The notes under the pieces were generated by a model that ran no database searches, was not told the DNA's origin, and saw nothing but the letters and a program-made list of their open reading frames with translations. 38,866 bases of DNA from Bacillota bacterium (GTDB lineage: Bacteria > Bacillota > Clostridia > Lachnospirales > CAG-274): assembly GCA_017444985.1 (NCBI GenBank), contig JAFSVK010000052.1, forward strand, positions 1 to 38,866, read 5' to 3'. Shown here one piece after another: positions 11,228 through 28,019 of this stretch. Position 1 is the first letter of the stretch, and every line of letters begins with the position of its first letter. The position numbers and the translations under genes are program-made.

Positions 11228-13171
11228 ATGAAAGAAAATATAAAACGCATAAACGAGCTTATACAAATACTCAACAAAGCCTCGGAGGTATACTACTCCG
11301 AAGGGGGAGAAATAATGAGCGACAAAGAGTTTGACACCCTTTACGATGAGCTTTCATCCTTAGAAAAGGAAACAGGCTATCAACGTTCCGACTCCCCTAC
11401 ACTGAATGTAGGCTATGAGGTAAAAAGTGGCCTTGAAAAGGTGACCCACCCTTCAAGAATGCTCTCTTTGAACAAAACCAAAAGCGTGGAGGCTCTTTCC
11501 GCCTTTGCGGGAGACACACCCTGTCTGCTGTCCTTTAAAATGGACGGTCTCACGGTGGTACTCACATACGAAAACGGCACTCTCCAAAGAGCCGTTACAA
11601 GGGGCAACGGAGAGGTAGGCGAGGATATTACCCACAACGCAAAGGTTTTTAAAAACCTGCCCCTTAAAATACCCTTTAAAGGTAGCCTTACACTGAGGGG
11701 AGAGGCTGTTATATCCTTTAAAGATTTTGAAATGACAAACAACAATATTGCCGAAGAAGAAAAATACAAAAACCCTCGAAACCTCTGCAGCGGTACCGTA
11801 AGACAACTGAACAGCGAAATTTGCAAAAAAAGAAATGTCTGTTTCATAGCCTTTGAACTTGTGGATGCCGAGGATAAAGTGTTTCAAAAAAAGAGTGAAA
11901 AATTACAATATCTGGACACTTTAGGCTTTACCACCGTAAAACGTATGTCTGTTACGGGTGGCACCATGGAAAAGGCTGTAAATAACTTTAAAGACATTAT
12001 ACCCGAAAACGAGTTTGCAACAGACGGCCTTGTGCTTACAATAGATGATATTGCCTACTCCGCTTCTTTAGGCGCTACGGCAAAATTCCCCCGAGACTCC
12101 ATAGCATTCAAGTGGCAGGACGAAACTGCCAAAACAAGGCTTTTATCGGTGGAATGGAACACCTCTCGCACGGGACTTATAAACCCCGTGGCAGTATTTG
12201 AGAGCGTAGAGCTTGAGGGCACCAGCGTATCCCGTGCCTCACTCCATAACATAAGTATATGCAGGGCTTTAAAGCTTGGCATAGGAGATGAGATAACGGT
12301 ATACAAGGCAAATATGATAATACCACAGGTGGATGAGAACCTGACCCAAAGCGACACCCTTGAGATCCCCGCCCTCTGTCCCGTGTGCGGCGAAGAAACG
12401 GAGATTGAAAACATAACCGGCAGTGAAGTTTTAAAGTGCGTAAACCCCAATTGCCAAGCTCAAAGAGTAAAAACCTTGGTGCACTTTGTTTCAAGGGATT
12501 GTATGAATATAGAGGGTCTGTCGGAGGCGGGCATAGAAAAATTTTGCCAATTGGGTATTATAGAATACTACCCCGATATATTCCTAATAAAAGACCATGC
12601 AGAGGAAATAACGAGCCTTGAAGGCTTCGGAGAAAAGTCCTTTACAAAACTTTGCGCCTCCATAGAAAAAAGCTCCCACACCTATTTGCATAACTTTTTA
12701 TATGCCTTGGGTATAAACAATGTAGGTCTTGCCACGGCAAAAATAATATGCCGACATTTTGACTACGATATAAACGCCGTAAAAAACGCCTCCCTTGAGG
12801 AACTTACGGACATTGACGGTGTAGGCCCCATAATAGCGGAGTCGGTGGTGAAATACTTTTCCCACCCCCACAATACGGAGCTTCTTGAAAAGGCTCTATA
12901 TCACCTGTCATTTGAAGCCTTTACCGCCTCGGAAAGTGCCATTACGGGCAAAAGCTTTGTGATCACGGGGGATGTGCATATATTTAAAAACAGGAAGGAA
13001 CTCAAAGAAAAAATAGAGTCCTTGGGAGGAAAGGTAACGGGTTCCGTATCCTCAAAAACGGATTACCTTATAAATAACGACCTAAACTCTACATCCTCCA
13101 AAAACAAAAAAGCCAAAGAACTTAACATTCCTATTATAACAGAAGAGGAATTTACGGAGAAAATACAATGA
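11228..13171 (+). CDS. ligA: NAD-dependent DNA ligase
   Basis: LigA seals nicks during replication and repair using NAD+. The 647-aa protein has the Ia and adenylation domains with the active-site lysine at K104 (FKMDG) and an OB domain. A four-cysteine zinc site follows (CPVC near residue 382, then CVNPNC near 403-408), with helix-hairpin-helix repeats (around residues 500-555) and a C-terminal BRCT domain (~575-647). Length is typical. It begins one base after the recombinase stop and overlaps the next gene by 4 bases (ATGA), so all are co-translated. Confidence 0.97.
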   Translation: MKENIKRINELIQILNKASEVYYSEGGEIMSDKEFDTLYDELSSLEKETGYQRSDSPTLNVGYEVKSGLEKVTHPSRMLSLNKTKSVEALSAFAGDTPCLLSFKMDGLTVVLTYENGTLQRAVTRGNGEVGEDITHNAKVFKNLPLKIPFKGSLTLRGEAVISFKDFEMTNNNIAEEEKYKNPRNLCSGTVRQLNSEICKKRNVCFIAFELVDAEDKVFQKKSEKLQYLDTLGFTTVKRMSVTGGTMEKAVNNFKDIIPENEFATDGLVLTIDDIAYSASLGATAKFPRDSIAFKWQDETAKTRLLSVEWNTSRTGLINPVAVFESVELEGTSVSRASLHNISICRALKLGIGDEITVYKANMIIPQVDENLTQSDTLEIPALCPVCGEETEIENITGSEVLKCVNPNCQAQRVKTLVHFVSRDCMNIEGLSEAGIEKFCQLGIIEYYPDIFLIKDHAEEITSLEGFGEKSFTKLCASIEKSSHTYLHNFLYALGINNVGLATAKIICRHFDYDINAVKNASLEELTDIDGVGPIIAESVVKYFSHPHNTELLEKALYHLSFEAFTASESAITGKSFVITGDVHIFKNRKELKEKIESLGGKVTGSVSSKTDYLINNDLNSTSSKNKKAKELNIPIITEEEFTEKIQ

Positions 13172-14454
13172 CAGACAATCAAAAATATATCGCCATAAAA
13201 ACAGACTTATATTTTTTGGAGGCGGCAAGAAGTATCGCCCTTTTGCAACAAAGGGAACTCCCTTCACCGTTGCAACCCCTTTTCAAAGAAACCCTTGACT
13301 TCTTTGCCCAAACGGAAAACATAGTATTTAACGACATCGAAGACAGGGATGAGTATGTTGATGAACACCTGTTTTTACTTGATGGAGCCAAGATCCTTTA
13401 TGAGGCGCTTCTTTCTACGGACTCATACTTAAGGCATATTTTAAGGAAAGTAGGCAACAAAATAAACGAAAAGGCTCTTTCGGCATCAAAAGATGATGTT
13501 ACCAAGGAACAATTCCTTGATATGCTGGAGTTTATGTTTGAAAACAACGGCAACGTAGAACCCATGCAGTACAACGAAACACTGAAAAACACTCCCCTTT
13601 TTAAAGAGGAATGTGAAGACAACAAAAAATTTAAACTTGCCTGCAGCAAGAAAACAGAGTATCTACTGAATCATCACTCCCATATACTCTCACTCAAGCT
13701 CAAGGAGATAGCGGCAGCCCTCTGCACCGAGGCACCTTCGGGCTTTAAAAAGCTTATGCCGAAACACGCCGAAAATATGGTAAAGCTTGAAAAGATACTG
13801 CAAAAAACATCTAACTTAGATACTTTGGAAGAGATAAAGAAAACCGTTACATCTTTAAAGCACTATGTAACGGGTGCTATAGACACCCTAAATGCCATAA
13901 TTCGCATACTTAACAGGCTTGATATAGTGCTCTCCCATGCCGAGTCCGAAAGCTTTATACTCCATAAAGACCTGCTTGCAAAGGACACCTTTTTCGCCCT
14001 TGTATCCGAAGACGGCAAAGAAAACAGCGAGGAGATACTTTCAAGACTGGATTCTTTCTTGGAAGATGCCAAAAACACCCCTCTTCCCACCCCCGATGAG
14101 GATGAGGATGACTACGATGATATTTCCCACATAGATAATATAACTGCCACAAGCTCCTACTTTTTTATGCTCGCCGATTTTATTAAGCCCAAAAAAGAGG
14201 ATGTATTGGCATTTATAGACAAGCAAATATCCGAAAAAGAAAACTATATGTCAGAAATCGATATCAAGCTTTGCAAAAACTATGTTTTAAGCGAGCTGAC
14301 CTACATAGAAAGAAAAGAAGACTACCTCACTCTCATGGAAAAAGCCTTCCAAAACTGCACCACCCCCGCAGAAAGACTGTCTCTCTACATACAAACCTCT
14401 ACTTTGGAGAACGATGTATCGGATCTTTATATACTTAAAAATGATTTTGAGTAA
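13168..14454 (+). CDS. Uncharacterised helical protein co-translated with ligA
   Basis: I do not recognise this 428-aa protein. It has no signal peptide or membrane segment, is predicted mostly helical, and is acidic. It has a strongly acidic stretch (TPDEDEDDYDD) near residues 308-318 between two helical regions. There is no visible catalytic motif or zinc-binding pattern. It starts inside the last codons of ligA (ATGA overlap) with GGAG 8 bases upstream, and a strong terminator follows directly. Coupled expression suggests a link to ligA or the recombinase, but no function can be assigned. Confidence 0.85.
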   Translation: MTDNQKYIAIKTDLYFLEAARSIALLQQRELPSPLQPLFKETLDFFAQTENIVFNDIEDRDEYVDEHLFLLDGAKILYEALLSTDSYLRHILRKVGNKINEKALSASKDDVTKEQFLDMLEFMFENNGNVEPMQYNETLKNTPLFKEECEDNKKFKLACSKKTEYLLNHHSHILSLKLKEIAAALCTEAPSGFKKLMPKHAENMVKLEKILQKTSNLDTLEEIKKTVTSLKHYVTGAIDTLNAIIRILNRLDIVLSHAESESFILHKDLLAKDTFFALVSEDGKENSEEILSRLDSFLEDAKNTPLPTPDEDEDDYDDISHIDNITATSSYFFMLADFIKPKKEDVLAFIDKQISEKENYMSEIDIKLCKNYVLSELTYIERKEDYLTLMEKAFQNCTTPAERLSLYIQTSTLENDVSDLYILKNDFE

Positions 14455-14611: not shown

Positions 14612-17600
14612 TTAGCTTTTGGGTTTACCGAAAAGTGCGTGTTTTATTTTTACAAGGCTTCTTAAAAGCTTTGGTTTTTTAGCAAGAACATCTATGATGT
14701 AGAGTTTTAAAAGTCCTTTATCAAGTAGAAAGAGGGTGAAAAACTTTCCCACTCTGCCTTTGTGGGCTATGACATTTTGTATCATTTCCCTCCTGCTCAA
14801 CGTTCTTGTACCTGCGGAGGATACGGGCTGTACCGTGTTTTTTACAAACTCGTATATGTTTATGCTCTTATTGGAACCGTATACCATATCCTCAAAGAAG
14901 GAGGCGGAAAATATTTTTCTGTCCGCATCTCTTGCGGCTCTTAAGTAGCCTTCAAACATAAGGGAGGCTTCATATTTTTTAAGACCCATATATTCTTTGT
15001 ATTCGGAATATATCTTAAAAAACTCTTCCACCGCCCAAAGGGCACCCTCCTGCAATTTGTTTACAACAAAGGTATCGCAGTAGTTTTTGTTTTCATCCTC
15101 AAAAAGCAAGGCTCCCTTTTCGTCAAAGCCTATACAGGAAGGCTCGGGGTCGGAGAATATGTGTTCTCTCAATAAGCCCGACACGGAGGGTTTAAAGTCA
15201 TAGTATGTTTCTATGTTATAGCCCCCTTCTTTTGCCTCGAAAACGCTTCTTTTGGTATCGGTGTGTATGAAAAGGACATCTACGGGCCTTTCCACTGCCT
15301 TTGAAAGGGCGGTCTGTATCCTTCCGCTGTAGCCCATATCAAAGGTGATGCCCTCTGTTTTAAGGTCTTTATAGTAGGCTCTTACCTTTTCCTTTGACTT
15401 TTCATGTATATCTCTATCGTATATATTATCGGTAAAGAAGCTTATAAAATCCCTAAACTCCTCTTTTGATGAAAAGGTATCACTAAGCTTGTAGCCCTTT
15501 TTTATACTTTCTTTTGCCTTATCCTCATCGCAGCAGTAAGACAAAAGGGATAGGAGGGTGGCTACGCTGTGGTTTCTGTACTCTACGGGGAGGTCGAAAA
15601 AGTCTGCCTTTTGCTCTGTCATAAATGGCAGGAGCATCCTTCTTGAAGCGTAGATATATTGGCTCTTATTTTGAGAGCCCACATACTTTTTGTATATATC
15701 AAAAGCTTTTTTAGGCAAAAAACCATCTCTTGCCATAAAGTAAATGTCTTTATTTTCTGCCTTCTTATCTATCCACTCACATAGGGAGGCTATGTGAGGG
15801 GCTATGGCATTCATACCTATAAAGTAGGGATCGCAATTAAAGTCGCTTTCACTTGAAAAACTTCTGTAAGGGTTATCGAAATACTCTCCGCAAACTATGG
15901 CGCAAAGAGTTCTGTAGCCTAAGTTTTCCAAAACAGCTTCTCTTTCAGCCACAGCTCCCATAATATTTAACCCCAAGTCGCTGCAGTTGTTGGTGGTAAG
16001 GTTTTGTATCTTGTTTTCGTATACCTCCGTAGCTTTAGGGAAAAAAGCAGTGTTTATGCCCATACTCTCAGGGTTTTCCACATCGTTTCTCCAAGTGTCA
16101 CCTATGTGGAGCATATCGGAGGGTGATATTTTAAGCTCTTTTAAAGCCGCCTTAAAAAGATTGGAGCTGTTTTTGGTAAGTCCAAGTTCGGAAGAGAGGA
16201 AAAGAGCCTCATAACCTTCATAGCCGCAATCCGAAAGTATTTCTTTAACGGTTTTTTCCCTTAAGTACATATCCGATATAAGTACAACTTTCTTACCCGT
16301 AGCCTTTGCACACTCAAAAAGTTCTCCCCCTGCCCTTCTTCTTGTTATAAGTCTTTTTTCAAGGGCTATCTCCTCTTCCATCATCTCACGGCAAACACTT
16401 TCATCTATACCGTAGAGCTTAGGCATAAAGGAGTATATCTCATCTATATATATATCCTCTCTCTTGGGGTCTGTTTTTCCGAAAGAGGCTCTTGCGTAGG
16501 CTTCCGTATCTATTCTTATAGCTTTGAAATCAGCATTTATATGAGTTTTTTCTTTAAACTTTTTGTTTAAGAGCAAAAACACATCCTCGGGTCTGTACAC
16601 CCTTCTTTTAATGAGGGTATCGAAAATATCAAAGCTTATTACCTTTTCGCTCCCCTTTATTATCATATCCTTTATGGATTCAAGACCGTAATTAAGGGGT
16701 GTTGTGATACTTTCAAAGAAGTGGTCGGATACTGTGGTATTTTCGCCGTAGGAGGGTGTAAACTCCTCTATAAGGGCAAGAGCCTTTGCCTTTTCACCTG
16801 CGGAAAAGGTGCTCTCAGCCAAGTCCTTCCACATTCTGGAGTAGTATTTTTTAGTTTCTCCGAAGTTGTCTTTTATATATTGGGGTGCCTGTCTGTCCTC
16901 CAAGAAATTTTCCACAAAGCTAAAAGCATAGCTTATATCCTGCATATTTTTGGTAAATCTCTTTAAAGTGGTCTTTGAGGCATCCGTAGAGGCATTTTCA
17001 TTTTCGCAGTAGTATATACCGTCATTTTCCACTGTGGAAAGGCTTCTTGCAAAGTAGAAAAGAGGAGAGGAAAAGGCGATATCCTCCGTCATTATAAGGT
17101 GTACATCCACCTTTTGGTAGTAGGGCATACACTTATCCCAAAGCTCTTTGGAGTATATCTTATTCCATACGGTATGCCAAGAAAAACAACTGCCCTTTTG
17201 TGCAAAATAGGTATCTCTTACCTTCTCGCCCTCCATATACTTAAAATTAAAGCACTCGTCATGGAGATTACGCACATAGTTTTCCCCGTTTACCCTTCTG
17301 AATATGGTCTTACCCACCACAATATCGCTTTTGTACTTTTCGGCACTTGCCATAAGTGTACGATAGTAGTCGGGAGTACAAAAATCATCGCTGTCGTGGA
17401 ATGTTATATACTCACCCGTCGCAATTTCGGCTCCCGCTACTCTGGCTCTGAAAAGTCCCCTGTTTTTATCGTAGGTAAGGTAGCGTATCCTCTCGTCTTT
17501 GTAGCCTTTTATGATCTCCTCCGCATTACCCGGACTGCAGTCATTTACAAATATAAACTCTATATCCTTATATGTCTGTGCCAGAAGGGATTCTATACAT

Positions 17601-17656
17601 CTGGGAAGATATTTTTCAACATTATATACGGGTATTACTACCGAAAGTTTACTCAT
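14612..17656 (-). CDS. GT2 glycosyltransferase fused to a HAD-like domain
   Basis: This 1014-aa cytoplasmic protein starts with a GT-A family 2 glycosyltransferase (residues ~1-240; SVVIPVYNVEKYLPRC, then the metal-binding DSDD at 88-91). A HAD-type domain follows (~340-560) with all motifs: FDIFDTL (343-348), LISDMYL (459-465), a Lys in GLTKN and GDTWRND (519-525). The C-terminal ~430 residues (around MARDGFLPKKAFDIY) form a region often seen with such HAD domains in polysaccharide loci. GT2 enzymes add sugars from nucleotide donors; the HAD substrate is unknown. It is the last gene of the mnmE-to-GT run, one base after the methyltransferase stop, with AGAGGA upstream. Confidence 0.85.
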   Translation of the reverse strand: MSKLSVVIPVYNVEKYLPRCIESLLAQTYKDIEFIFVNDCSPGNAEEIIKGYKDERIRYLTYDKNRGLFRARVAGAEIATGEYITFHDSDDFCTPDYYRTLMASAEKYKSDIVVGKTIFRRVNGENYVRNLHDECFNFKYMEGEKVRDTYFAQKGSCFSWHTVWNKIYSKELWDKCMPYYQKVDVHLIMTEDIAFSSPLFYFARSLSTVENDGIYYCENENASTDASKTTLKRFTKNMQDISYAFSFVENFLEDRQAPQYIKDNFGETKKYYSRMWKDLAESTFSAGEKAKALALIEEFTPSYGENTTVSDHFFESITTPLNYGLESIKDMIIKGSEKVISFDIFDTLIKRRVYRPEDVFLLLNKKFKEKTHINADFKAIRIDTEAYARASFGKTDPKREDIYIDEIYSFMPKLYGIDESVCREMMEEEIALEKRLITRRRAGGELFECAKATGKKVVLISDMYLREKTVKEILSDCGYEGYEALFLSSELGLTKNSSNLFKAALKELKISPSDMLHIGDTWRNDVENPESMGINTAFFPKATEVYENKIQNLTTNNCSDLGLNIMGAVAEREAVLENLGYRTLCAIVCGEYFDNPYRSFSSESDFNCDPYFIGMNAIAPHIASLCEWIDKKAENKDIYFMARDGFLPKKAFDIYKKYVGSQNKSQYIYASRRMLLPFMTEQKADFFDLPVEYRNHSVATLLSLLSYCCDEDKAKESIKKGYKLSDTFSSKEEFRDFISFFTDNIYDRDIHEKSKEKVRAYYKDLKTEGITFDMGYSGRIQTALSKAVERPVDVLFIHTDTKRSVFEAKEGGYNIETYYDFKPSVSGLLREHIFSDPEPSCIGFDEKGALLFEDENKNYCDTFVVNKLQEGALWAVEEFFKIYSEYKEYMGLKKYEASLMFEGYLRAARDADRKIFSASFFEDMVYGSNKSINIYEFVKNTVQPVSSAGTRTLSRREMIQNVIAHKGRVGKFFTLFLLDKGLLKLYIIDVLAKKPKLLRSLVKIKHALFGKPKS

Positions 17657-17657
17657 A

Positions 17658-18911
17658 TTATCCTCTGTTTCGTATTTTTTCTATTTTGCCCGAAAGTGTG
17701 GCAGCGTACTTTTTACTTATATCGGCATTTTCTTTTGTCAGAGCATTTACCCTTTCTTCCAAGGTCCTTATATACTCGTCTTTTCCCGATACAGTGCCTT
17801 CGTAAGCCTGTACTATAGCCTTTTTTTCTTCTTCAAAGGCTATCTCTTTTTCTTTTTTATCACTTTCGTATGCCCGAACCGTAACTTCCTTATCCTTTTC
17901 GTAGTCCTTTACAAGTTGAGCTTTTTCCTCTTCAAAAGCCGCCAAGTTTTGGGCTATACGACTCTCATAAGCATTTCGTATGTTTTCAGCCTCGTTTTCG
18001 TAGTCTTTTATGGTTTTATCCATATCTTCTTTGTACTTATCCCCGATAGAGGCTACATCTTCCTCAAGCTTTTTGATATATGCCTTCATATCCGTGCTTT
18101 CTTCGGCATATTTTGAGATATGCCCGTTTAAGCTTTCCTTCTGACTCAAAAGGTCTGCAATATACATATCCCTATCTTTAAGCTTGAAATAGTCCTGTCT
18201 CAAAACATCTTTAAAGTCTACATCAAGGGCATTGTTGTAGCGCTGATATTTTTGTAAATCTATACTATCTTTTATATCATTATAGGTCTCACGGCTTTTG
18301 AATATAAGCCCAAGACCCCAGCTGAAATCAAACTCAAGGGTATATTCGTATCTTTCTTTAAGCTCTTCCCAATAGGTATGAGAGCCCATAATATCACCAA
18401 GCACCACATCCTCACTTATATCGTGGAGCATTATGATACCCGTATCCTTTACTTTATCAATCCAGCCTTCAAAGTCCCTTTTAACGTCCTCATAGTGGTG
18501 AGAACCGTCTATATGGAGTATATCCACACTTTTATCCTCTACGGAGGAAAGTGCCTCATCAAAGGTCATTCTCAGCATATTTATATTTTGTGTGGGGTAT
18601 ATCTCATCTACCGTCTTTTTAAATACGGTGTAAACATCGTTGTTGTATTTTTGGGTAAAATCGTCCCCCTGCCAAGTATCCACAAAATTTAAGACCGTGG
18701 TCAAATCCTTATCCTTTACCGCCTGAGAAAAGGCAAAGGCACTGCAACCGTAGTGAGAGCCAAGCTCTGTAATATTCTCGGGCTTAAGGTAGGCTACCAA
18801 GTCATAGGCAAAGGCTCTGTGTCCCGACCAAGGAGCATATTTTAAAAGTTCGCTGTTTAATTTATCACATTCAAATTCGGGGTTGTGGTACTCCCATTTC
18901 TTTTCATTCAT
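17658..18911 (-). CDS. SAM-dependent methyltransferase with C-terminal hendecad coiled coil
   Basis: Residues ~20-205 form a class I methyltransferase resembling the Methyltransf_24 group, with the SAM-binding motif ELGSHYGCSAF (49-59) and HIDGSHHYEDV (133-143). Residues ~240-410 are charged and helical. Within them eight aromatic residues (Y/F at 293, 304, 315, 326, 337, 348, 359, 370) are spaced exactly 11 apart, mostly followed by Glu. This is a hendecad coiled-coil repeat, preceded by a ninth unit with Leu282. The gene lies between Wzt and the glycosyltransferase with 1-base gaps. By analogy with WbdD it may methylate and so cap the polysaccharide, with the coil as a spacer. That is inference, and there is no kinase domain as in WbdD. 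Confidence 0.82.
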   Translation of the reverse strand: MNEKKWEYHNPEFECDKLNSELLKYAPWSGHRAFAYDLVAYLKPENITELGSHYGCSAFAFSQAVKDKDLTTVLNFVDTWQGDDFTQKYNNDVYTVFKKTVDEIYPTQNINMLRMTFDEALSSVEDKSVDILHIDGSHHYEDVKRDFEGWIDKVKDTGIIMLHDISEDVVLGDIMGSHTYWEELKERYEYTLEFDFSWGLGLIFKSRETYNDIKDSIDLQKYQRYNNALDVDFKDVLRQDYFKLKDRDMYIADLLSQKESLNGHISKYAEESTDMKAYIKKLEEDVASIGDKYKEDMDKTIKDYENEAENIRNAYESRIAQNLAAFEEEKAQLVKDYEKDKEVTVRAYESDKKEKEIAFEEEKKAIVQAYEGTVSGKDEYIRTLEERVNALTKENADISKKYAATLSGKIEKIRNRG

Positions 18912-18912
18912 A

Positions 18913-20175
18913 TTATTTCTCCCCCTCTGTTACGGTAAAAGAGCGCATATCGTGGTTGAATATGCCGAATATGGTTTTACCTCCCGTAGAGGCGCAAAGG
19001 TGTATGGCGTTATTTATCCAACATTCCTCCACCTGATTTAAAACATCGGTACCGTTTCCCACGCCTAAGGTTATGAAGTAATCCCCTTCCCTTATTTCGG
19101 GCCATTCAAATTCAAACTCTATAATATTTAAGCCTTCTTTTAAGGGGTACTGCTCCACACCGCTTGTAAGTGAGGTTTGCCCGAATATCTCATCGGCATA
19201 TTTATTTCTTATTTGATAGCCTATAATAGGGTAGTCTATGGTCTTATTCACCCTTACCGCCATGGACACCTTTATAAGCTCGTCTTTTTTAACAGCCTCC
19301 GAAAAAGGTTCTCCCTCTACGCTATAGTGGTAGCCCTCTATAACGGCATTCATATTTCCGCTGTACTGACCTTCCTCGGGTTTTTTGTAATTTGAAAGGT
19401 CGGGAGCGTTTTCCGCCTCACCCGTCTGTCTTTTTACACTTCCCCCTTGTTTTATGCGAAAGTATCTTGCTATGGCCTCATTGGGGTCTCCGTCAAATAC
19501 CTTTTCTCCCTTATTCATAAGTATTATTCTTTTGGAAAATTTAGTAAGGGCATTAAGGTCGTGGGAAACTATTATGACCGTAGCGGAACCCGAAAGTTCC
19601 TTTATTTTTTTATAGCACTTCTGTTGAAAAAAAACATCGCCTACGGAAAGAGCCTCATCCACAATAAGTATCTCGGGCTTTATATTTATCGATACCGCAA
19701 AGGCAAGCCTTACAAACATACCGCTGGAGTAGGTCTTTACGGGTTGGTCTATAAAGTCTCCTATGTCGGCAAAGTCCAATATCTCGGGCAACATTTCCGT
19801 GGTTTGGGCTTTTGTGTAGCCGTTCATGGCGGCATTTAAGTATATATTTTCTCTTCCCGTATACTCGGGGTTAAAGCCTGCTCCAAGCTCAAGTAAGGCG
19901 GATATTTTACCCTCCACACTGACACTTCCCTCTGTGGGAGAAAGTATACCCGTTATGATTTTGAGTATGGTACTTTTACCCGCACCGTTAAGGCCTATGA
20001 TACCTACGGTCTCACCTTTTTCGATATCAAAGGATACACCCTTTAAGGCATAGTACTTTTTGTGGTAGCTTTTTTTGGTGATACTTAAAGCCTCTTTCAG
20101 CCTGTCGGTGGGTTTATTGTAGAGATTATATACTTTTGTGACATTTTCCACTCTTACGGAATAATTTTTTTCCAT
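18913..20175 (-). CDS. wzt: Polysaccharide ABC transporter ATPase with C-terminal sugar-binding-like domain (Wzt)
   Basis: The 420-aa protein has a TagH/Wzt-type ATPase (residues ~1-240): Walker A GLNGAGKST (61-69), signature YSSGM (149-153), Walker B ILIVDEALSVGD (169-180) and the switch His in VSHD. The ~160-residue C-terminal extension has the beta-rich pattern of the Wzt C-terminal domain (VRVNKTIDYPIIGYQIRN, then GLNIIEFEFEWPEIREGDY). In O9a-type systems this domain binds the modified chain end. I chose the ATG at 20175 with GAGGA 7 bases upstream; the frame opens at a TTG 9 codons earlier. It pairs with the permease directly upstream. Confidence 0.93.
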   Translation of the reverse strand: MEKNYSVRVENVTKVYNLYNKPTDRLKEALSITKKSYHKKYYALKGVSFDIEKGETVGIIGLNGAGKSTILKIITGILSPTEGSVSVEGKISALLELGAGFNPEYTGRENIYLNAAMNGYTKAQTTEMLPEILDFADIGDFIDQPVKTYSSGMFVRLAFAVSINIKPEILIVDEALSVGDVFFQQKCYKKIKELSGSATVIIVSHDLNALTKFSKRIILMNKGEKVFDGDPNEAIARYFRIKQGGSVKRQTGEAENAPDLSNYKKPEEGQYSGNMNAVIEGYHYSVEGEPFSEAVKKDELIKVSMAVRVNKTIDYPIIGYQIRNKYADEIFGQTSLTSGVEQYPLKEGLNIIEFEFEWPEIREGDYFITLGVGNGTDVLNQVEECWINNAIHLCASTGGKTIFGIFNHDMRSFTVTEGEK

Positions 20176-20185
20176 ATATGTATCC

Positions 20186-21535
20186 TCATAATACGTCGGC
20201 AAAATGGGGTTTTAATTTTTTGTACATCACGGAGCCTATTATCATACACACCAGAACAAAACCCCAAAAATAAGCGGTTTGGCGTATATTGTTGTAAAAG
20301 GCGCTGCCGTATATCATACTTTCCCTGTAGCCCTGTACGATGTAGTACATGGGATTAAGCTTAAAAATAGGTATAAGGTTTTTGGGTATCCTGTCTATCT
20401 GCCACATTATGGGAGTAAGCCACATACCGAATTGCAAAACTATATTCATTATCTGTCCCATATCTTTAAAGAAAACTTCCAATACACTTGTAATATAGCC
20501 TAAGGATATTACAAGCATCACCATGGAAAAGGAGTAGTATATCACCTGTATCCAAGATATTTTGGGAGCTACACCGTATATGAGAAAGAAGGCGAACATA
20601 AACGCCACAAAAAATATATGCACAAAAAAGGCGGATATTATTTTTACAAGAGGCAATATATGTACTTTAAATACCACCTTTTTAACAAGGTAGCTGTATT
20701 CTTGCAAAGACATGGTGGCACCGCTCCAACCCTCGGAGAAAAAGAACCAAGGTATAAGGCCTGCCATAAACCACAGTATAAAAGGCACATCGGAAACATC
20801 GGAGTTTCTGAAACCTATTTGAAAAACGAACCAAAATACAAGTATGGTACAAACAGGCTGTACAAATGCCCATACTATACCGAAGTAGGAGCCTGCAAAC
20901 CTGGTCTTGAAGTCGTTTACAGCCAATGAAAGTATTAAATTTCTGCTTTCGTAAAGGTCTTTTGCAAGATGGGCAAGAGCCTTTATTTTAACGAATCTGT
21001 TAAGTAAAAGCACCGTCACAAGAGCTGCGAAAAAGGCAAGACCGTAGGCTTTTACCTTATCGTAGGGTTTAAGAGGTATATCCTCTATCAAAATATAAGG
21101 GTCGGAGCCCGTTACCTTGAATTTACCGTTTTTAAGGGTAATATCATTTAATATCGCTTTTTCAAGCTCTATATTGCCACTGCCATTTTTGCAGCTGTAG
21201 TTTAAAGAAAGTGTAAACTCGCTTTCATTACCCGGAACGATAAGTATACCTTGGGCAGGTTCGTTTTCGGGAAGTATATATCTCTTATCCAAAACAAGCG
21301 TGGTATCTTCCCCGTTTTCCCAATAGGCTTTTTCAGGGGTAAAATCTTCTTCTTTTTGGTATCTGTAGTATATGGTCAGCATACTACCCTTATCGGCATT
21401 AAACTTTATATCCATCACCGTTCTTTCGGTGTAGGAGCCTATAAAGCCCAAGAAGGAAAAGACCACAGCCAAAAATACAGCCGCATATACCGTTATTTTC
21501 AATGTATAAAACAAGTAAGTGGGTTTATTTTTCAT
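20186..21535 (-). CDS. wzm: Polysaccharide ABC transporter permease with N-terminal ectodomain (Wzm)
   Basis: The C-terminal ~260 residues are an ABC-2 polysaccharide exporter permease (NDFKTRFAGSYFGIVWAFVQP near residue 205, and QFGMWLTPIMWQ further on). Unusually, the protein is 449 aa long. A membrane segment at ~12-33 is followed by a ~130-residue soluble, beta-rich segment and another membrane segment at ~165-183 before the permease core. Standard Wzm/TagG proteins (~260-280 aa) lack this part. AAAGG precedes the ATG, and the rsmG stop is 10 bases upstream. Confidence 0.9.
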   Translation of the reverse strand: MKNKPTYLFYTLKITVYAAVFLAVVFSFLGFIGSYTERTVMDIKFNADKGSMLTIYYRYQKEEDFTPEKAYWENGEDTTLVLDKRYILPENEPAQGILIVPGNESEFTLSLNYSCKNGSGNIELEKAILNDITLKNGKFKVTGSDPYILIEDIPLKPYDKVKAYGLAFFAALVTVLLLNRFVKIKALAHLAKDLYESRNLILSLAVNDFKTRFAGSYFGIVWAFVQPVCTILVFWFVFQIGFRNSDVSDVPFILWFMAGLIPWFFFSEGWSGATMSLQEYSYLVKKVVFKVHILPLVKIISAFFVHIFFVAFMFAFFLIYGVAPKISWIQVIYYSFSMVMLVISLGYITSVLEVFFKDMGQIMNIVLQFGMWLTPIMWQIDRIPKNLIPIFKLNPMYYIVQGYRESMIYGSAFYNNIRQTAYFWGFVLVCMIIGSVMYKKLKPHFADVL

Positions 21536-21545
21536 AAAAGGACCT

Positions 21546-22259
21546 TTACAAAGGAGATGTACTTATTTTCTTTGCCCTTCTGGGATATTTGGTATCTGTG
21601 GGGGAGGTTTTTTCTATTTCCGTTATATATCTTTCAAAATCCGTGTCGGGAAGCTTTATATCTATATTTTTAACTAATTTGCCACCCAAAAGGCTCACGG
21701 CATTTTCAGCCTCTTTTATTTCGGTCTCGGCATTTTTGCCCTTTAATGCCAAAAACTTACCTCCCACCTTTACAAAGGGCATATCGTATTCGCAAAGTAT
21801 GTTTAGAGGTGCTACGGCACGGGAGAGGGCAATGTCGTATTTTTCCCTCATACTTTCATCCTTTGCCACCTCTTCGGCTCTTGCGTGTATACAGGTCACA
21901 TTTTCAAGGGAAAGCTTACGGCACACCTCTTCCAAAAAGGCTACCCTTTTATTTAAGCCGTCAAGAAGGGTAAGCCTCATTTCGGGACAAAGTATTTTAA
22001 GGGGAAGCCCGGGGAAACCCGCACCCGTACCCACATCTATAACATCTTTGTGTTTAAGATCGAAGTACTTTAACACCACGGCTGAATCGGCAAAATGCTT
22101 TATACATATCTCCTTTTCATCCGTAATGGCTGTAAGGTTCATAACGGCATTGTATTCCAGCAAAAGCTCGCAGTAGGAAGAAAATTTTTCCGCCTGTTCA
22201 TTGCTTATATCAATGCCTATCTTACCCATATATTCCCTTAAAAACACCGACGTTTTCAT
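21546..22259 (-). CDS. rsmG: 16S rRNA (guanine-N7)-methyltransferase G
   Basis: RsmG (GidB) methylates G527 of 16S rRNA using SAM. The 237-aa product has the expected length and the SAM-binding motif DVGTGAGFPGLPLKI, followed by LLDGLNKRVAFL and SRAVAPL. GGGTGA lies just before the ATG and overlaps the mnmG stop region. In most Firmicutes noc/parA/parB follow rsmG; here the polysaccharide exporter permease follows after 10 bases. Confidence 0.96.
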   Translation of the reverse strand: MKTSVFLREYMGKIGIDISNEQAEKFSSYCELLLEYNAVMNLTAITDEKEICIKHFADSAVVLKYFDLKHKDVIDVGTGAGFPGLPLKILCPEMRLTLLDGLNKRVAFLEEVCRKLSLENVTCIHARAEEVAKDESMREKYDIALSRAVAPLNILCEYDMPFVKVGGKFLALKGKNAETEIKEAENAVSLLGGKLVKNIDIKLPDTDFERYITEIEKTSPTDTKYPRRAKKISTSPL

Positions 22260-22263
22260 ATTT

Positions 22264-24138
22264 TCACCCGTTTAAGAAGCATAAAAGCATATTTATATCC
22301 GCAGGAGATACACCGCTTATCCTACTTGCCTGTCCTATATTTACAGGCCTAAGTGCCTTAAGCTTTTGTCTTGCCTCAATTCTGAGACCCATAACATCAT
22401 CGTAATTTATATCCTCGGGTATAAGCCTTCCCTCTATGTTTTTAAAATGCTCTACCTGTTTTTGCTGTCTTTGAATGTAACCCTCGTACTTTATTTGTAT
22501 GTTCACCTGTTCCCTTACACTTTGGGAAAGGGAGGGTCTATCTTTGTCAAGAGGGGCAAGAAGTTCATAATCAAGCTCGGGTCTTTTAATAAGGTCCGTA
22601 AGCTTTATACCCGTTTCCAAGGGTGAGGATGAAGCTTTTTCAAGAAAGGCGTTTACCTCCTCCGTAGGGGCTATATTTATTTTCTTGACTCTCTTTATTT
22701 CTTTTTCTATATTCTCTCTTTTTTCTTGAAAAGCGGCATATCTCTCCTCGGATATAAGACCGTACTTGTAGCCTATATCCGTAAGACGAAGGTCTGCATT
22801 GTCCTGTCTTAAAAGAAGCCTGTACTCCGCTCTTGATGTCATCATTCTGTAGGGCTCTTTGCTCTCTTTTGTGACAACATCATCTATAAGCACACCTATA
22901 TAACCTTGGGATCTGTCAAGTATAAGAGGCTCTATACCCTTTACATAGCAAGCCGCATTTATACCCCCTATAAGGCCCTGTGCCGCAGCCTCTTCATAAC
23001 CGCTGGTACCGTTGAACTGCCCGGCACTGAAAAGACCTTTTATATCTTTAAACTCAAGAGTAAGTTTCAGGGAATTTGCCTCTATGCAATCGTACTCTAT
23101 AGCGTAGGCTGTACGCATAAATCTCACATTTTCAAGCCCCGGGAGGGTCCTGTACATGGCTACCTGCACATCCTCGGGCAGAGAAGAGCTCATACCCTGT
23201 ACATAAAGCTCGTTGGTATCCTCGCCCTCGGGCTCTATAAATATTTGGTGTCTGTCCTTGTCCGCAAACCTTACCACCTTATCCTCTATGGAAGGGCAGT
23301 ATCTGGGGCCCGTACCCTCTATAACTCCCGAATAAAGAGGAGATCTGTCCAAATTCTTTCTTATAATATCGTGGGTCTTTTCGTTGGTGTAGGTAAGGTA
23401 ACAGCTTACCTGTTCCCTTGCTATATCCTCGGCACTGTTTTCAAAGGAGAAGGGTACTATATTTTCATCTCCTCTTTGCTCCTTCATTTTGGAAAAGTCC
23501 ACCGTTCTTTTGTCTACTCTTGCGGGGGTGCCCGTTTTGTATCTCTTAAGCTTTACACCCAAGCTTTTAAGGCTCTCGCTTAGGGCTACGGAGCGTCTTA
23601 AGCCGTTGGGACCGCTTTCTGTTATGGTACTGCCGTAAAGACACCTTGCCTTAAGGTAGGTACCCGTACATATAACTACAGCCTTGCACTCATAGAATGC
23701 CCCCGATTCCGTTATAACGCCCTTTACAGCACCCTCTTCCGCCACTATATCCGTGACTTCCCCCTGTCTTAAAAGGAGGTTTTCCGTGTTTTCAACGGTC
23801 TTTTTCATCTCGGTGTGGTACTTTGCCTTATCCGCCTGTGCTCTCAGGGAATATACCGCAGGGCCCTTACCCGTATTTAACATTCTGGACTGTATATAGG
23901 TCTTGTCTATATTTTTGCCCATTTCTCCCCCCAAAGCATCTATCTCTCTTACAAGATGACCTTTGGAAGAACCGCCTACATTAGGGTTACAGGGCATCAT
24001 AGCCACAGAGTCTAAATTTATGGCAAAAAGTATGGTATTCAACCCCATTCTTGCCGATGCCAAAGCTGCCTCACAGCCTGCATGCCCCGCACCTATCACC
24101 ACAACATCCACAGTATCTGCGGTATATATCCTCTCCAT
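22264..24138 (-). CDS. mnmG: tRNA uridine-5-carboxymethylaminomethyl modification protein MnmG
   Basis: MnmG (GidA) works with MnmE to make cmnm5U at wobble uridine 34 of certain tRNAs, using FAD and NADH. The ~624-aa protein has the N-terminal FAD site GAGHAGCE (residues 16-23), the [10 protein letters not shown] motif, the conserved [17 protein letters not shown] segment and a C-terminal helical domain ending in [14 protein letters not shown] chose the ATG at 24138; a GTG two codons upstream also opens the frame. It sits 9 bases after mnmE. Confidence 0.97.
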
Positions 24139-24147
24139 TTTCACACC

Positions 24148-25524
24148 TCATTTTCCCAAACAAAATCTTGAAAATATGTTGTCCACCACATCATCCTCAA
24201 GGCTTTGCCCGGTGATCTGTCCCAAATACTCGTAAGCCTGAAGCAAGTCCATGGTGAGAAGGTCTTCGGGCATATTGTTTTCTATGGTGGAGAGAACATT
24301 TTCCAAAGAGTTTTTGGCACCTATAAGACTTGCCTTGTTTCTTTCGTTTGAGATATATACATCGTTTTCTTTTATATCTCCCTTAAGAAACATTTCTTTT
24401 ATGCGTTTTTCCATATTTTCCATACCCATATTTTCCTTGGCGGAGATAACTATGGGCTGTTGACCCGTAAGGTCTTCTATATATTTTAGGTCTATTTTTC
24501 TTTCCATATCCGCCTTGTTCACAATAACAAGGCTTGCACCTTTAAGGAGAGCGAAAAGCTCCCTATCCGACTCTTCCAAAGGTTTGGAGCCGTCTAAAAC
24601 AAGTATTTTAAGGTCTGCCTTTTCCGCTGCCTCTATACTCTTTTCAACACCTATTTTTTCTATTTTATCTTCCGTATCTCTTATACCTGCGGTGTCGGCA
24701 ATATTAAGGGGTATACCCCCTATATTTATATGTTCCGTGAGCATATCTCTGGTGGTCCCGGGTATATCCGTAACGATAGCCCTCTCGCTTTTTAAAAGAG
24801 CATTTAAAAGTGAGCTTTTACCTACATTTGGCTTTCCTATAATGGCAGTATCTATACCTGCGGTATAAATTTTTCCGATATCCGCACTTTCTATAAGAGA
24901 GAGGCAGCTTTTAAGTGTTTCCTCACAGCCCTTTTTTACATTTTCAAGCACAAGCTCCGTTTCATCATGCTCGGGATAGTCTACAGATACCTCCACATCG
25001 GCGGTAAGGGTAAGAAGCTTTTGCCTCATAGCCTCTATTTTATCGTAAAGACCGCCTTTAAGCTTTTTTATGGCAATATCCTTGCCCTCGGAGGTCTTGG
25101 CATTTATAACATCCATTACAGCCTCGGCTTTTGAAAGATCTATCCTACCGTTTAAGAAGGCTCTTTTGGTAAACTCTCCGGCCTCTGCAAGACGAGCGCC
25201 TTTTTTTATGACCGCCTCAAGCACATCCTTTACGGCGGTATAGCCTCCGTGGGTGTTTATCTCTACGATGTCCTGTCTTGTGTAGGTGTTAGGTGCTTTC
25301 ATAACGCTTACAAGCACCTCATCTATTACCCTTCCCTCGCTTACGATATTGCCGTAGGCAAGGGTGTGGCTTTTCATATCTTTTAAATTTTTGTTCTTGC
25401 CCTCAAATACAGAGGCACATATTTCCACCGCATCATCGCCGCTTACCCTGACTATACCTATACCTCCGTTGCCTACGGAAGTGGATATGGCGGCTATGGT
25501 GTCTTGAAGATCCACTTTAAGCAT
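24148..25524 (-). CDS. mnmE: tRNA modification GTPase MnmE
   Basis: MnmE (TrmE) is the GTPase partner of MnmG. The 458-aa protein has an N-terminal folate-binding domain (residues ~1-118), a helical domain and an inserted G domain with G1 GKPNVGKSS (230-238), G3 DTAGIRDTED and G4 NKAD. It ends in FCLGK, matching the conserved FC[IL]GK whose Cys is catalytic. The start is the ATG at 25524 with AGAGG upstream; the open frame continues 49 codons into a non-coding repeat, which I reject. It is the first gene of the run ending at the glycosyltransferase; I see no strong promoter in the repeat-rich gap upstream. Confidence 0.97.
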   Translation of the reverse strand: MLKVDLQDTIAAISTSVGNGGIGIVRVSGDDAVEICASVFEGKNKNLKDMKSHTLAYGNIVSEGRVIDEVLVSVMKAPNTYTRQDIVEINTHGGYTAVKDVLEAVIKKGARLAEAGEFTKRAFLNGRIDLSKAEAVMDVINAKTSEGKDIAIKKLKGGLYDKIEAMRQKLLTLTADVEVSVDYPEHDETELVLENVKKGCEETLKSCLSLIESADIGKIYTAGIDTAIIGKPNVGKSSLLNALLKSERAIVTDIPGTTRDMLTEHINIGGIPLNIADTAGIRDTEDKIEKIGVEKSIEAAEKADLKILVLDGSKPLEESDRELFALLKGASLVIVNKADMERKIDLKYIEDLTGQQPIVISAKENMGMENMEKRIKEMFLKGDIKENDVYISNERNKASLIGAKNSLENVLSTIENNMPEDLLTMDLLQAYEYLGQITGQSLEDDVVDNIFSRFCLGK

Positions 25525-25575
25525 GATATACCTCTTTTGCACTAAAGCTCTACAGTGACCTATATCAAAACCGAC

Positions 25576-25660
25576 GGAACGACACTTTTCAGCATTTTTG
25601 CTACGCAAAAGTCGGGCTGTCACCTGCCCGCATCTATCTTTGCGGTGCATAGGTCGTTCC
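25576..25660. repeat. GGAACGAC palindromic repeat, long variant
   Basis: GGAACGAC (25576-25583) and GTCGTTCC (25653-25660) enclose ~69 bases that themselves contain inverted segments (GCATTTTTGC, and CGACTTTTGCG on the other strand). The following CCCTACA is shared with the other two copies. It lies just upstream of mnmE in the 470-bp gap 25525-25994, which holds only repeats and the jag-side terminator. Confidence 0.7.
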
Positions 25661-25708
25661 CTACAAACCATTCCTATGTTTTCGGGATTTTATCTTTTTA
25701 TACTAAAT

Positions 25709-25790
25709 TCCCATTCCCACCGGAACGACACGCGGATCGTTCCCTACAGATCGTTAGAAGATTTTGAAATATTGGCATTGTTTTTTTCTT
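25709..25790. repeat. GGAACGAC palindromic repeat, copy 3
   Basis: GGAACGAC (25722-25729), 6-base loop, ATCGTTCC (25736-25743), then CCCTACA and an AT-rich tail. It aligns along ~80 bases with the copy at 2490-2580. It ends two bases before MITE-like repeat copy C, as copy 1 lies 30 bases from repeat copy B. Confidence 0.75.
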
Positions 25791-25792
25791 AT

Positions 25793-25948
25793 GGGGAGCT
25801 CTAAAAAGTGCTATTGAAGTAAAATTAAGCTTCTTGTTCGAGGACCGGGAAACGGCTCAAAGCCAATGTAGAGCATTGGTGAGAGACATTGACGACTAAC
25901 CTTTGCAAGATAGCCAATTTTACGATTTATGAATTTTTAGAGGTTCCC
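25793..25948 (+). repeat. MITE-like repeat copy C, full length
   Basis: Complete 156-bp copy. The left end reads GGGGAGCTCTAAAAA and the right end TTTTTAGAGGTTCCC, so it is more diverged than copies A, B and D. The subterminal part is also changed (AAGCTTC in place of GAGATAG). The central 35 bases, which include the CCAATG/CATTGG hairpin, are unchanged. The adjacent stem GGCT-CAA-AGCC keeps its pairing while its loop differs from the other copies. Confidence 0.88.
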
Positions 25949-25963
25949 ATAAGTATCAAAAAC

Positions 25964-25987
25964 AAAAAAGGGGAAGTACTCTTCCCC
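25964..25987 (-). terminator. Terminator of the rpmH-jag operon
   Basis: On the minus strand, 8 bases after the jag stop codon (25995), GGGGAAG pairs with CTTCCCC (25970-25976 with 25981-25987, 4-base loop) and is followed by TTTTTTGTTTTT. Confidence 0.85.
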
Positions 25988-25994
25988 CTTTAAA

Positions 25995-26909
25995 TCAATT
26001 TTCGTTCGTCTTTGTTGATTCGTTCTTATTGCGATTTGAAGAGTTGTAAGAGCTTCTGTAGGAAGAATATCTTCTTCCTGTGGTATAGCCGTTTTTAAGT
26101 GCTATCACCACGTATCTGTAGGGCTCTGCACCTTCGGAGAAGGTAGTTACATACTTATCGTTTTGAAGAGCGGCATGTATTATTCTTCTCTCATAGGGAT
26201 TCATAGGCTCTAAAGTAACGTTTCTTCTGTTGTGTTTTGCCTTTTTAGCCAAGTTCAATGCCAACTTTTCAAGGGTCTCTTTTCTTCTTTCTCTATAGCC
26301 TTCGGTGTCTAAGGTAACATTCATATAAGGATACTCACCCTTATTTACCACAAGGTTTGTAAGATACTGAAGGGAATCAAGAGTTTGACCTCTCTTGCCT
26401 ATAACGCTACCCATATCTGCACCCGTAAGCTCTGCTCTTATTTGCTTGTTGTCAACAAAGTTTACGCTTACGCCTACTTCAACGCCCATTTTGGAGAATA
26501 CTTCGTTTAAGAAGTTTTCGGCACTCTTTACGATACCCGCCTTATCCTCCTCGGTGAGAAGGGCTCTTTCGCTTTGAGGCTCTTCTTCTTTCTCTTCTTT
26601 GGTCTCCTGCTCCGGGTTAGCTTTTTTCTCCTGCTTTATTTCTTTCTTTTCTTCTTTTTTCTCTTCTTTTGCGGCAGCCTTTTCTTCTTTCTTTTCTTCC
26701 TTTGCTACCTCTGTCTCATCTTGTTCATCGGGATCCGTTCCCGTTTTGTACACAAGTACCTTGGCAAGTTTTGCTCCTATTCCGAGAAAACCCTTTGAGG
26801 CATCGTTTATAACTCTGTATTCTATCTCCGTAAGGTCTAAGCCAAGTTCTTTTGCTCCCGCTTCTACCGCCTCGTTAATGGTTTTTCCCGTAATTTCGAT
26901 TTTGTTCAT
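25995..26909 (-). CDS. jag: RNA-binding protein Jag/KhpB (EloR)
   Basis: Jag/KhpB is a cytoplasmic RNA-binding protein linked to cell elongation and membrane protein insertion. The 304-aa product has an N-terminal Jag_N domain (~1-55), a long Lys/Glu-rich linker (~65-115), a KH domain with GKRGQTLDSLQ, an R3H domain (NPYERRIIHAAL) and a Ser/Asn/Arg-rich tail. The neighbours yidC and rnpA are the usual ones. AAGGGGG precedes the ATG. Confidence 0.95.
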   Translation of the reverse strand: MNKIEITGKTINEAVEAGAKELGLDLTEIEYRVINDASKGFLGIGAKLAKVLVYKTGTDPDEQDETEVAKEEKKEEKAAAKEEKKEEKKEIKQEKKANPEQETKEEKEEEPQSERALLTEEDKAGIVKSAENFLNEVFSKMGVEVGVSVNFVDNKQIRAELTGADMGSVIGKRGQTLDSLQYLTNLVVNKGEYPYMNVTLDTEGYRERRKETLEKLALNLAKKAKHNRRNVTLEPMNPYERRIIHAALQNDKYVTTFSEGAEPYRYVVIALKNGYTTGRRYSSYRSSYNSSNRNKNESTKTNEN

Positions 26910-26921
26910 TGTGTTGCCCCC

Positions 26922-28019
26922 TTACTTTTTCTTCGATTTCTCTTTTTCTTTTTGTTTTTTATACAATTCTATATTTTTCTGTTTCGCCTTCTCTTGCGAG
27001 TTTGCCGTACCGAGTTTTTCGGGATGTTTGTCAAGGTAGGCACTTAAAAGTTCCTGTTGAACTATCATACAAACATTTGATGTTATCCAGTAAAGACCTA
27101 TACCTGCGGGAAGAGTGGTGGTGATCCACGCCATAAAAAGAGGCATCGTTATCATCATTACCCTCTGCTGGCTCTTCATCATGGAGTCTGTTTCCATAGC
27201 CTTTGTCCTTCTCTGCATAAGGAAGGATGAAAGGAAGGTGGTACCACCGGAGAGTATGGGTATAAGCAAGGTAAGATTGGGCTTTATGCCTACGGTCTCC
27301 GTAAGGTTAAGTCCCAAAAAGCTTTCTATTGTAGCCTTCTTTTCAAGTAATTCGTTAAAGTTTACGCTGTTTACCATTTCTTTAAGAGAGGCTATCTCAT
27401 TTGGCGAGAGGACATTTAAGATCCTGCTGAATATATCGGAAGTATACTGTGTACCCGCCTTTATACCGCAGTTTTGTCCAAAGTTCGTTATAAGCTCCAA
27501 TACATCGGGACTATTCTTTGTCATGCCCAAAGCAATGTCGGATATACCGTAGTAAACTTCCTGAATATAGTCCACATACCTAAAAGGGTTTCTCATAACA
27601 TAGTAAAGACCCATAAATATAGGAAGCTGTATGAGTATGGGAAGGCAGCCCGCAAACTGATTGTAGTTGTTGTCGGCATAGAGTTTTTGTATCTCTACGG
27701 TCATTTTCCTCTGTATTTCGGGATCTTTTGAGCTGTCTTTGTATTTTTCTTGTATTTTCTTTATCTCCGGTGCAAGTTCTTGCATTTTGGCAGTGGATTT
27801 CTGCTGTTTGTAGGAGAGAGGTATCATTATGATCCTCATAAGTATTGTAAGGAAAATAATGGTGATACCCAGGGAGTTAGGGTCTCCCGTTATCATATGC
27901 ACAAAGTTAAATAATATATTTATAAGAAAGCCTATTACCCTTGCAATAGGTCCTACTATTATTCCGTCTTTAAGTGAAACTGTCTGTTTTGCCAAAAAGG
28001 CAACTTGCTGACCGTACAA
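26922..28019 (-). CDS. yidC: Membrane protein insertase YidC/OxaA
   Basis: YidC inserts and folds membrane proteins, alone or with Sec. The 365-aa protein has a first membrane segment and a basic cytoplasmic loop (MIPLSYKQQKSTAKMQEL). The OxaA core follows, with QLPIFMGLYYVM and LPAGIGLYWITSN, and a Lys-rich tail. The extracytoplasmic loop between segments (~residues 150-235) is long for a Gram-positive YidC. The start is a TTG at 28019 with AGGAGG 7 bases upstream; the nearby ATG is out of frame. Confidence 0.95.
   Translation of the reverse strand: MYGQQVAFLAKQTVSLKDGIIVGPIARVIGFLINILFNFVHMITGDPNSLGITIIFLTILMRIIMIPLSYKQQKSTAKMQELAPEIKKIQEKYKDSSKDPEIQRKMTVEIQKLYADNNYNQFAGCLPILIQLPIFMGLYYVMRNPFRYVDYIQEVYYGISDIALGMTKNSPDVLELITNFGQNCGIKAGTQYTSDIFSRILNVLSPNEIASLKEMVNSVNFNELLEKKATIESFLGLNLTETVGIKPNLTLLIPILSGGTTFLSSFLMQRRTKAMETDSMMKSQQRVMMITMPLFMAWITTTLPAGIGLYWITSNVCMIVQQELLSAYLDKHPEKLGTANSQEKAKQKNIELYKKQKEKEKSKKK

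Follow-up and report, generated by a model that had tools for sequence, protein, structure and literature searches.

A register-keeping helical tail on a putative chain-terminating methyltransferase in a Clostridia glycan-export operon

Introduction

What is an exact eleven-residue repeat of aromatic residues doing on the tail of a methyltransferase whose gene stands between those of an ABC transporter and a large glycosyltransferase? This question is raised by a locus in the window, that is, the whole stretch of 38,866 nucleotides of Clostridia DNA analysed here, where a 417-aa protein carries the repeat. A possible answer comes from the WbdD protein of Escherichia coli O9a, in which a coil holds the capping domains about 200 Å from the polymerase and changes to the coil alter chain length (PMC5082667). 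Only capped chains are recognised by the CBM of Wzt and exported (PMC11231755), and comparable assembly systems have been mentioned in Gram-positive bacteria (PMC3482155). As a class, coiled-coil chain terminators are already known. In the literature covered, which did not extend to the survey of Mann et al. 2019 (cited in PMC11231755), neither hendecads nor tandem repeats were found linked to this pathway.

The operon and the protein

The genes of interest lie on the minus strand in the order wzm - wzt - methyltransferase/coil - GT2/HAD (Table 1), and their ends overlap or are 1 base apart, which suggests a single operon. Specifically, wzm and wzt are found directly upstream of the methyltransferase gene, and the Wzt ends in a carbohydrate-binding domain that is the sole Wzt_C match in its genome. 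Genes for chain terminators of ABC-transporter-dependent glycan pathways (WbdD, Klebsiella O7, WsaE) stand in this order.

Table 1. Features of the locus, with positions counted in the window
Feature	Position	Strand	Evidence
GT2 + HAD glycosyltransferase, 1014 aa, candidate polymerase	14612..17656	-	Glycos_transf_2 E 3e-39, Hydrolase E 7.6e-11
Methyltransferase with coiled-coil tail, 417 aa, proposed chain terminator	17658..18911	-	Pfam Methyltransf_24 E 1.6e-22; AF2 class I methyltransferase core + helix 273-416
Basic C-terminus, residues 402-417 (YAATLSGKIEKIRNRG)	17661..17708	-	similar Y-x2-T-x3-K endings in several orthologues
Helical tail, residues 262-417 (156 aa)	17661..18128	-	Fourier period 3.64; AF2 helix 228-268, continuous helix 273-416
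Module B, residues 370-384 (YEGTVSGKDEYIRTL)	17760..17804	-	motif at least once in 12/16 tails
Eight consecutive 11-residue units, residues 293-380 ([YF]E-x9)	17772..18035	-	residue spacing
Module A, residues 268-282 (Y-x9-YI-x2-L), tail start	18066..18110	-	tail-start Tyr in 14/16 orthologues
Methyltransf_24 domain, residues 49-165	18417..18767	-	Pfam; SAM-motif region ELGSHYGCS; D135, D164 conserved in alignment
Wzt: ABC transporter ATPase + C-terminal carbohydrate-binding domain (Wzt_C 18958-19362)	18913..20202	-	ABC_tran E 6e-24, Wzt_C E 8.1e-17
Wzm: ABC-2 permease, N-terminal extension about 185 aa	20186..21535	-	ABC2_membrane E 1.4e-17, residues 201-407

Some other features of the region were recorded alongside. 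The N-terminal extension of Wzm (a predicted helix, a beta-rich stretch and a second helix) is shared by the window and its family, the Wzm proteins of other lineages being 259-272 aa long and free of it; it has no Pfam match, and Foldseek gave no match at E 0.001 from a model that is too poor (mean pLDDT 48.6). The glycan operon directly follows a housekeeping run on the same strand (21546-28019), whose genes we take, from their translations, to be YidC, Jag, MnmE, MnmG and RsmG. At 28995-30556 a Wzz-type protein stands beside a ParA/BY-kinase-like ATPase, a pair which suggests that the region also encodes another pathway for a polysaccharide, and on the plus strand (13168-14454) there is a 428-aa protein without any Pfam or NCBIfam match.

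The Methyltransf_24 domain of the 417-aa protein is N-terminal and has an O-methyltransferase fold, its cap-adding role being putative. In the AF2 model (six sequences) the O-methyltransferase-like core has block pLDDT values mostly of 65-96, lower near residues 11-30 and 81-90. The best PDB match to this core in Foldseek is MeT1, a mannoside 1-O-methyltransferase (6g80), and VIA Z scores of 15-17.5 were obtained to O-methyltransferases, several of them cation-dependent. No kinase domain was found by Pfam in the protein, nor is there room for one, since the methyltransferase core runs to about residue 208 and the tail begins at 262. Behind the core, residues 273-416 are predicted as one continuous helix (pLDDT about 52-76), in agreement with the periodicity of the tail, and at 1.5 Å per residue this predicted helix of about 144 residues would be ~216 Å long. 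The preliminary description of the sequence had already read the methyltransferase as bearing a coiled coil, and a long helix is indeed predicted here, on a glycan-cluster enzyme beside Wzm and a CBM-bearing Wzt.

The eleven-residue aromatic repeat

The same description had reported aromatic residues spaced exactly 11 apart from 293 to 370, mostly as [YF]E, with a leucine at 282 in register, and the residue positions bear this out. Y293, Y304, Y315, F326, Y337, Y348, F359 and Y370 are exactly 11 apart, L282 falls in the same register, and a glutamate directly follows seven of the eight aromatics, the exception being Y293 (YK). The repeat had been placed at 17784-18071, which corresponds to residues 281-376; the eight units proper occupy 17772-18035. 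In 20,000 shuffles of the tail (composition kept, spacings of 3-24 allowed) the longest run at equal spacing was 5, seen 33 times, and 8 was never reached. Of the window's 87 open frames with 100 aa or more, the one for this protein has the longest equally spaced Y/F run; the next longest is of 6.

The hendecads are embedded in a definite order of parts: module A (Y268-x9-Y278-I-x2-L282), a 25-residue step from Y268 to Y293, the eight hendecads, module B (Y370-x9-Y380-I-x2-L384), which overlaps the last hendecad unit, and the basic end. The hydrophobic residues of the tail give a Fourier peak at 3.64-3.65 residues per turn with a power of 20-22 (95th percentile of the null, 6.3), and the tail shows the 11-residue period and the a, d, e and h core positions of a hendecad pattern, with a weak core. 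When units were pooled over all tails, position 1 was always aromatic (it was selected so), and positions 5, 8 and 9 were hydrophobic in 50, 52 and 40% of units; judged by residue pattern, positions 1, 5, 8 and 9 fit a hendecad a-d-e-h core with Tyr/Phe at h. Core position a in the seven pooled units of the window reads M, A, I, K, K, K and K, and with so weak a core the stable oligomerisation of this tail is not certain.

At the DNA level, TRF finds no 33-bp tandem repeat in the window, and the 33-bp units of the array are only 33-64% identical. The array is therefore probably old, and the TRF result gives no sign of a recent 33-bp change in this genome.

The reading that we favour, with a probability of about 0.6, is that the protein terminates chains, by methylation, in an ABC-transporter-dependent glycan pathway, its coil spacing the cap site from the polymerase. 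The N-terminal domain would probably O-methylate the non-reducing end of a lipid-linked chain; the carbohydrate-binding domain of Wzt would recognise the capped end, and Wzm/Wzt would export the chain. The C-terminal tail, a long helix that probably oligomerises as a coiled coil, would keep the capping domain away from a polymerase on the membrane side, for which the adjacent GT2/HAD protein is the candidate, and the basic C-terminus is a possible segment for docking to the membrane or to the glycosyltransferase. Only chains longer than the spacer would then be capped, which makes the tail a plausible length ruler. Its length has evolved by tandem duplication of units that preserve the phase of the helix, of 11 residues here and of 14, 25, 28 or 39 in relatives.

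Tail length and repeat units across orthologues

Orthologues are present in several Clostridia families. One genome per species was compared, with the more distant Methyltransf_24 proteins (tail-less or in other fusions) left aside. In two other genomes of the window's genus, both only 71-78% complete, no copy of the gene was found, and viral contigs yielded no relative of the protein.

Tail length varies about ninefold across orthologues, from 39 to 361 aa. The preliminary description had supposed that the repeat number could vary between strains and had suggested comparing the number of 11-residue units in orthologues and looking for 33-bp insertions or deletions. Between orthologues the number of units does differ. 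The longest exact 11-spaced Y/F runs are of 8 in the window, 7 in L003, 5 in L002, 4 in L004 and L011, and 3 in L009 and L014 (family f6); such runs occur throughout the orthologues found in family f1. Compared with shuffles, 11-spaced pairs are significantly over-represented in L001, L002, L003, L011 and L014, but not in L004 or L009. While the window itself lacks them, 33-bp DNA tandem repeats remain in two orthologues (L003 and L014).

Other orthologues are built from other units, namely of 14 aa (L004), 25 aa (L013, L015), 28 aa (L024, L055, L057, L058) and 39 aa (L005), and these are seen by TRF as DNA tandem repeats of 42, 75, 84 and 117 bp; TRF rows of 19 and 21 bp (L006, L003), short and low in score, were treated as noise. 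The strongest DNA repeat is that of L055 (8859-10544), where an 84-bp unit occurs in the coil in 9.4 copies with a 91% match, which makes L055 a good candidate for repeat-number variation between strains. The module B motif is itself repeated within the 25-, 39- and some of the 28-aa-unit tails. Weak Pfam matches of the tails to bZIP, Med9, APG6 and similar families lie below the cut-offs and were treated as coil matches; DUF4214 in L055 lies above the cut-off, yet it matches the repeat region with no single stretch being significant. A side observation concerns Bacterium 1XD42-76 (apparently G1183), which has three methyltransferase/coil paralogues (L005, L006 and L058) with differing tails.

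All five unit sizes (11, 14, 25, 28 and 39) can be written as 7a+11b, so each duplication of a unit keeps the helix in register. Since this form fits 14 of the 33 possible sizes between 8 and 40 inclusive, the chance that five distinct sizes all do is about 0.014, a modest, hand-calculated figure that takes the sizes as independent. Anchor-to-anchor distances were also considered as 7a+11b evidence and dropped, since every number from 60 up is of this form.

The best hydrophobic periods of the orthologues range from 3.51 to 3.65, those with other units in the same operon reaching down to 3.51-3.59, and the sense of the supercoil is therefore probably not conserved. In relatives from Gram-negative bacteria the best periods are heptad-like, at 3.51-3.54 (the Comamonas peak does not exceed its null), and 11-spaced pairs are absent. 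In a methyltransferase-domain tree the members of the 25-aa pair group together, as do those of the 28-aa pair of family f64 and of the 28-aa pair of family f6; several forks elsewhere are weak. Because both units and periods vary among orthologues, the conserved feature is a register-keeping helical spacer rather than the hendecad. The hendecad itself is not essential: the window's family has it in common, but orthologues in the same operon use other units. The preliminary description had presented the near-straight or right-handed coil of hendecads as well suited to a fixed-length spacer, an emphasis that the 14-, 25-, 28- and 39-residue units in the same operon do not support. It had also named orthologues that keep the methyltransferase with no 11-residue periodicity, or with a random tail, as the observation that would speak against it; the former were encountered among the relatives, but their tails are not random.

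The same data can be read in another way: the tail would be a coil of a generic kind, serving for oligomerisation or as a scaffold, by which the methyltransferase is tethered to the glycosyltransferase complex. Nothing would then measure its length, which would drift freely through tandem duplication. The ninefold range of tail length and the lack of a conserved unit type would suit such a tether, which would need the visible sequence constraint, the helix register, just as a ruler would, and module B and the basic C-terminus recur as would be expected of a docking end. However, the architecture and gene order match those of systems in which length was shown to matter, and in most loci a Wzt_C stands beside the gene, which points to an export step that reads a cap. 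We consider the tether unlikely, though it is the strongest of the alternatives.

More doubtful still is the possibility that the 11-residue repeat forms a monomeric helix lying on the membrane (11/3) or a single charged alpha-helix instead of a stand-off coiled coil. Helices of the 11/3 type lie on membranes in apolipoproteins and alpha-synuclein, and their period is the 3.64-3.67 seen here. The tail is also 43% charged with a weak core, and apolipoproteins turn up, along with many coiled coils, in the PDB profile matches at chance level. Yet the enrichment of i to i+4 salt bridges, the test for single alpha-helices, is weak in the tail of the window (z 1.4), if stronger in some relatives; units of 14 and 28 residues, which are compatible with heptads, occur in orthologues from the same operon, and the aromatic and aliphatic residues form a narrow stripe (positions 1, 5, 8 and 9), as in coiled coils.

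Gene order in relatives

Where the locus is long enough to show it, families f1, f6 (G270) and f64 have the same arrangement, Wzm - Wzt - methyltransferase/coil - GT(HAD); beyond the f1 genomes it was seen in G270, G553 and G888. In G1010 and one locus of G1183, Wzm - Wzt - methyltransferase/coil is followed by another glycosyltransferase or an unassigned gene, the glycosyltransferase of G1010 being WsaF-like. In most orthologous loci the GT2/HAD gene adjoins the methyltransferase gene. Wzt_C was found in eight of the ten genomes tested, and also in G888 and G1010. In two genomes, G104 and G147, genes for the methyltransferase/coil and the GT-HAD protein are present (L032, L033) and no Wzt_C match was found genome-wide, the nearby Wzt of G147 having no such domain; this argues against a fully general terminator role.

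More distant relatives are located on Gram-negative plasmids. In Comamonas, Klebsiella michiganensis and Azospirillum the relative follows Wzm and a Wzt with Wzt_C. The K. michiganensis protein is a single chain of 1289 aa in which a methyltransferase of 40% identity is combined with a coil-like stretch, RgpF and a HAD region, the last being 27% identical to the glycosyltransferase of the window over 579 aa (E 1e-45), and the Azospirillum relative likewise joins methyltransferase and glycosyltransferase in one chain. This fusion in K. michiganensis suggests that the separate methyltransferase and GT2/HAD proteins of the window work together. On the E. coli plasmid pPSS-13_1, a relative (L060:7875-10517) whose coil-like stretch covers roughly 530 aa and ends in SWKLTAPVR lies among polysaccharide export genes, beside an ABC exporter whose ATPase, at only about 216 aa, has no room for a CBM, a further point against the terminator reading.

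A third explanation, that the enzyme methylates sugars inside the chain or supplies a methylated sugar as a building block, with no terminator system at all, would accommodate the two genomes without a Wzt_C match and the fact that the Methyltransf_24 label does not fix the substrate, but it is very improbable given that the gene directly follows a CBM-bearing Wzt in other Clostridia lineages with a long enough locus, and comes after one in Comamonas, K. michiganensis and Azospirillum.

Returning to the chain terminator with a spacer, some orthologue tails are just 39-48 aa long, which makes for a very short ruler and counts against the ruler reading. In view of these short tails and of the exceptions in family f5, the members of the family may not all be terminators that bear a ruler. 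A wider proposal, that of a Clostridia family of length rulers whose spacer evolves by register-keeping tandem DNA duplications (33, 42, 75, 84 and 117 bp, that is, 11, 14, 25, 28 and 39 residues) into a natural ladder of rulers, possibly with repeat-number variation of glycan length within species, is put forward only tentatively.

Implications

If the tail is a ruler, the orthologues would form a natural series of spacers of about 60 to 540 Å on homologous enzymes, mostly in the same operon, and would permit a comparative test of the ruler model outside the O antigens of Gram-negative bacteria. The clear DNA tandem repeats of the relatives suggest, in addition, a simple way for gut bacteria to alter the length of a surface glycan quickly.

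Comparison with known systems

Among known proteins, MeT1 of Mycobacterium hassiacum (6g7d, 6g80) is the nearest PDB sequence match (E 0.0015) as well as the top Foldseek structure. MeT1 methylates mannosides, at the 1-OH of methylmannose oligosaccharides, and its cluster is without an exporter (PMC9883506); unlike the window protein, the solved MeT1 chain of 231 aa has no long tail.

WbdD occurs in a methyltransferase-only form in E. coli O8 and Klebsiella pneumoniae O5 and in a kinase-methyltransferase form in O9a and O3 (PMC5082667, PMC11231755, PMC3482155). The window protein differs from the latter in having no kinase domain, and from WbdD in its Clostridia host and its exact 11-residue aromatic repeats, its terminal methyl and ruler being putative. 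WbdD is absent among the PDB sequence matches of the window profile up to E 10, which leaves sequence kinship with WbdD itself unproven and means that the window protein may be a similar solution rather than a member of the same family. It is also absent among the 50 PDB chains of the VIA-align list, where absence is not exclusion.

In the case of ORF6 of K. pneumoniae O7, as in the window, an N-terminal methyltransferase, a coil and glycosyltransferase modules belong to one pathway (PMC11231755). ORF6 is a methyltransferase-kinase with a coiled coil and two GT2 modules, whereas the window has a separate glycosyltransferase gene and no kinase segment; the K. michiganensis and Azospirillum relatives, with methyltransferase and glycosyltransferase in one chain, resemble ORF6.

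In Geobacillus stearothermophilus NRS 2004/3a, the WsaE methyltransferase has been proposed to add a 2-O-methyl cap to the S-layer glycan, and, as in the window, wzm-wzt are followed by the methyltransferase gene in a Gram-positive bacterium (PMC2943079). The G1010 relative, followed by a WsaF-like glycosyltransferase, resembles this system. Unlike WsaE, the window protein carries a long repeat tail. In the kinds of its parts, namely methyltransferase, long coil, Wzt with a CBM and glycosyltransferase, the operon corresponds to known terminator systems, which supports the reading of the protein as a chain terminator.
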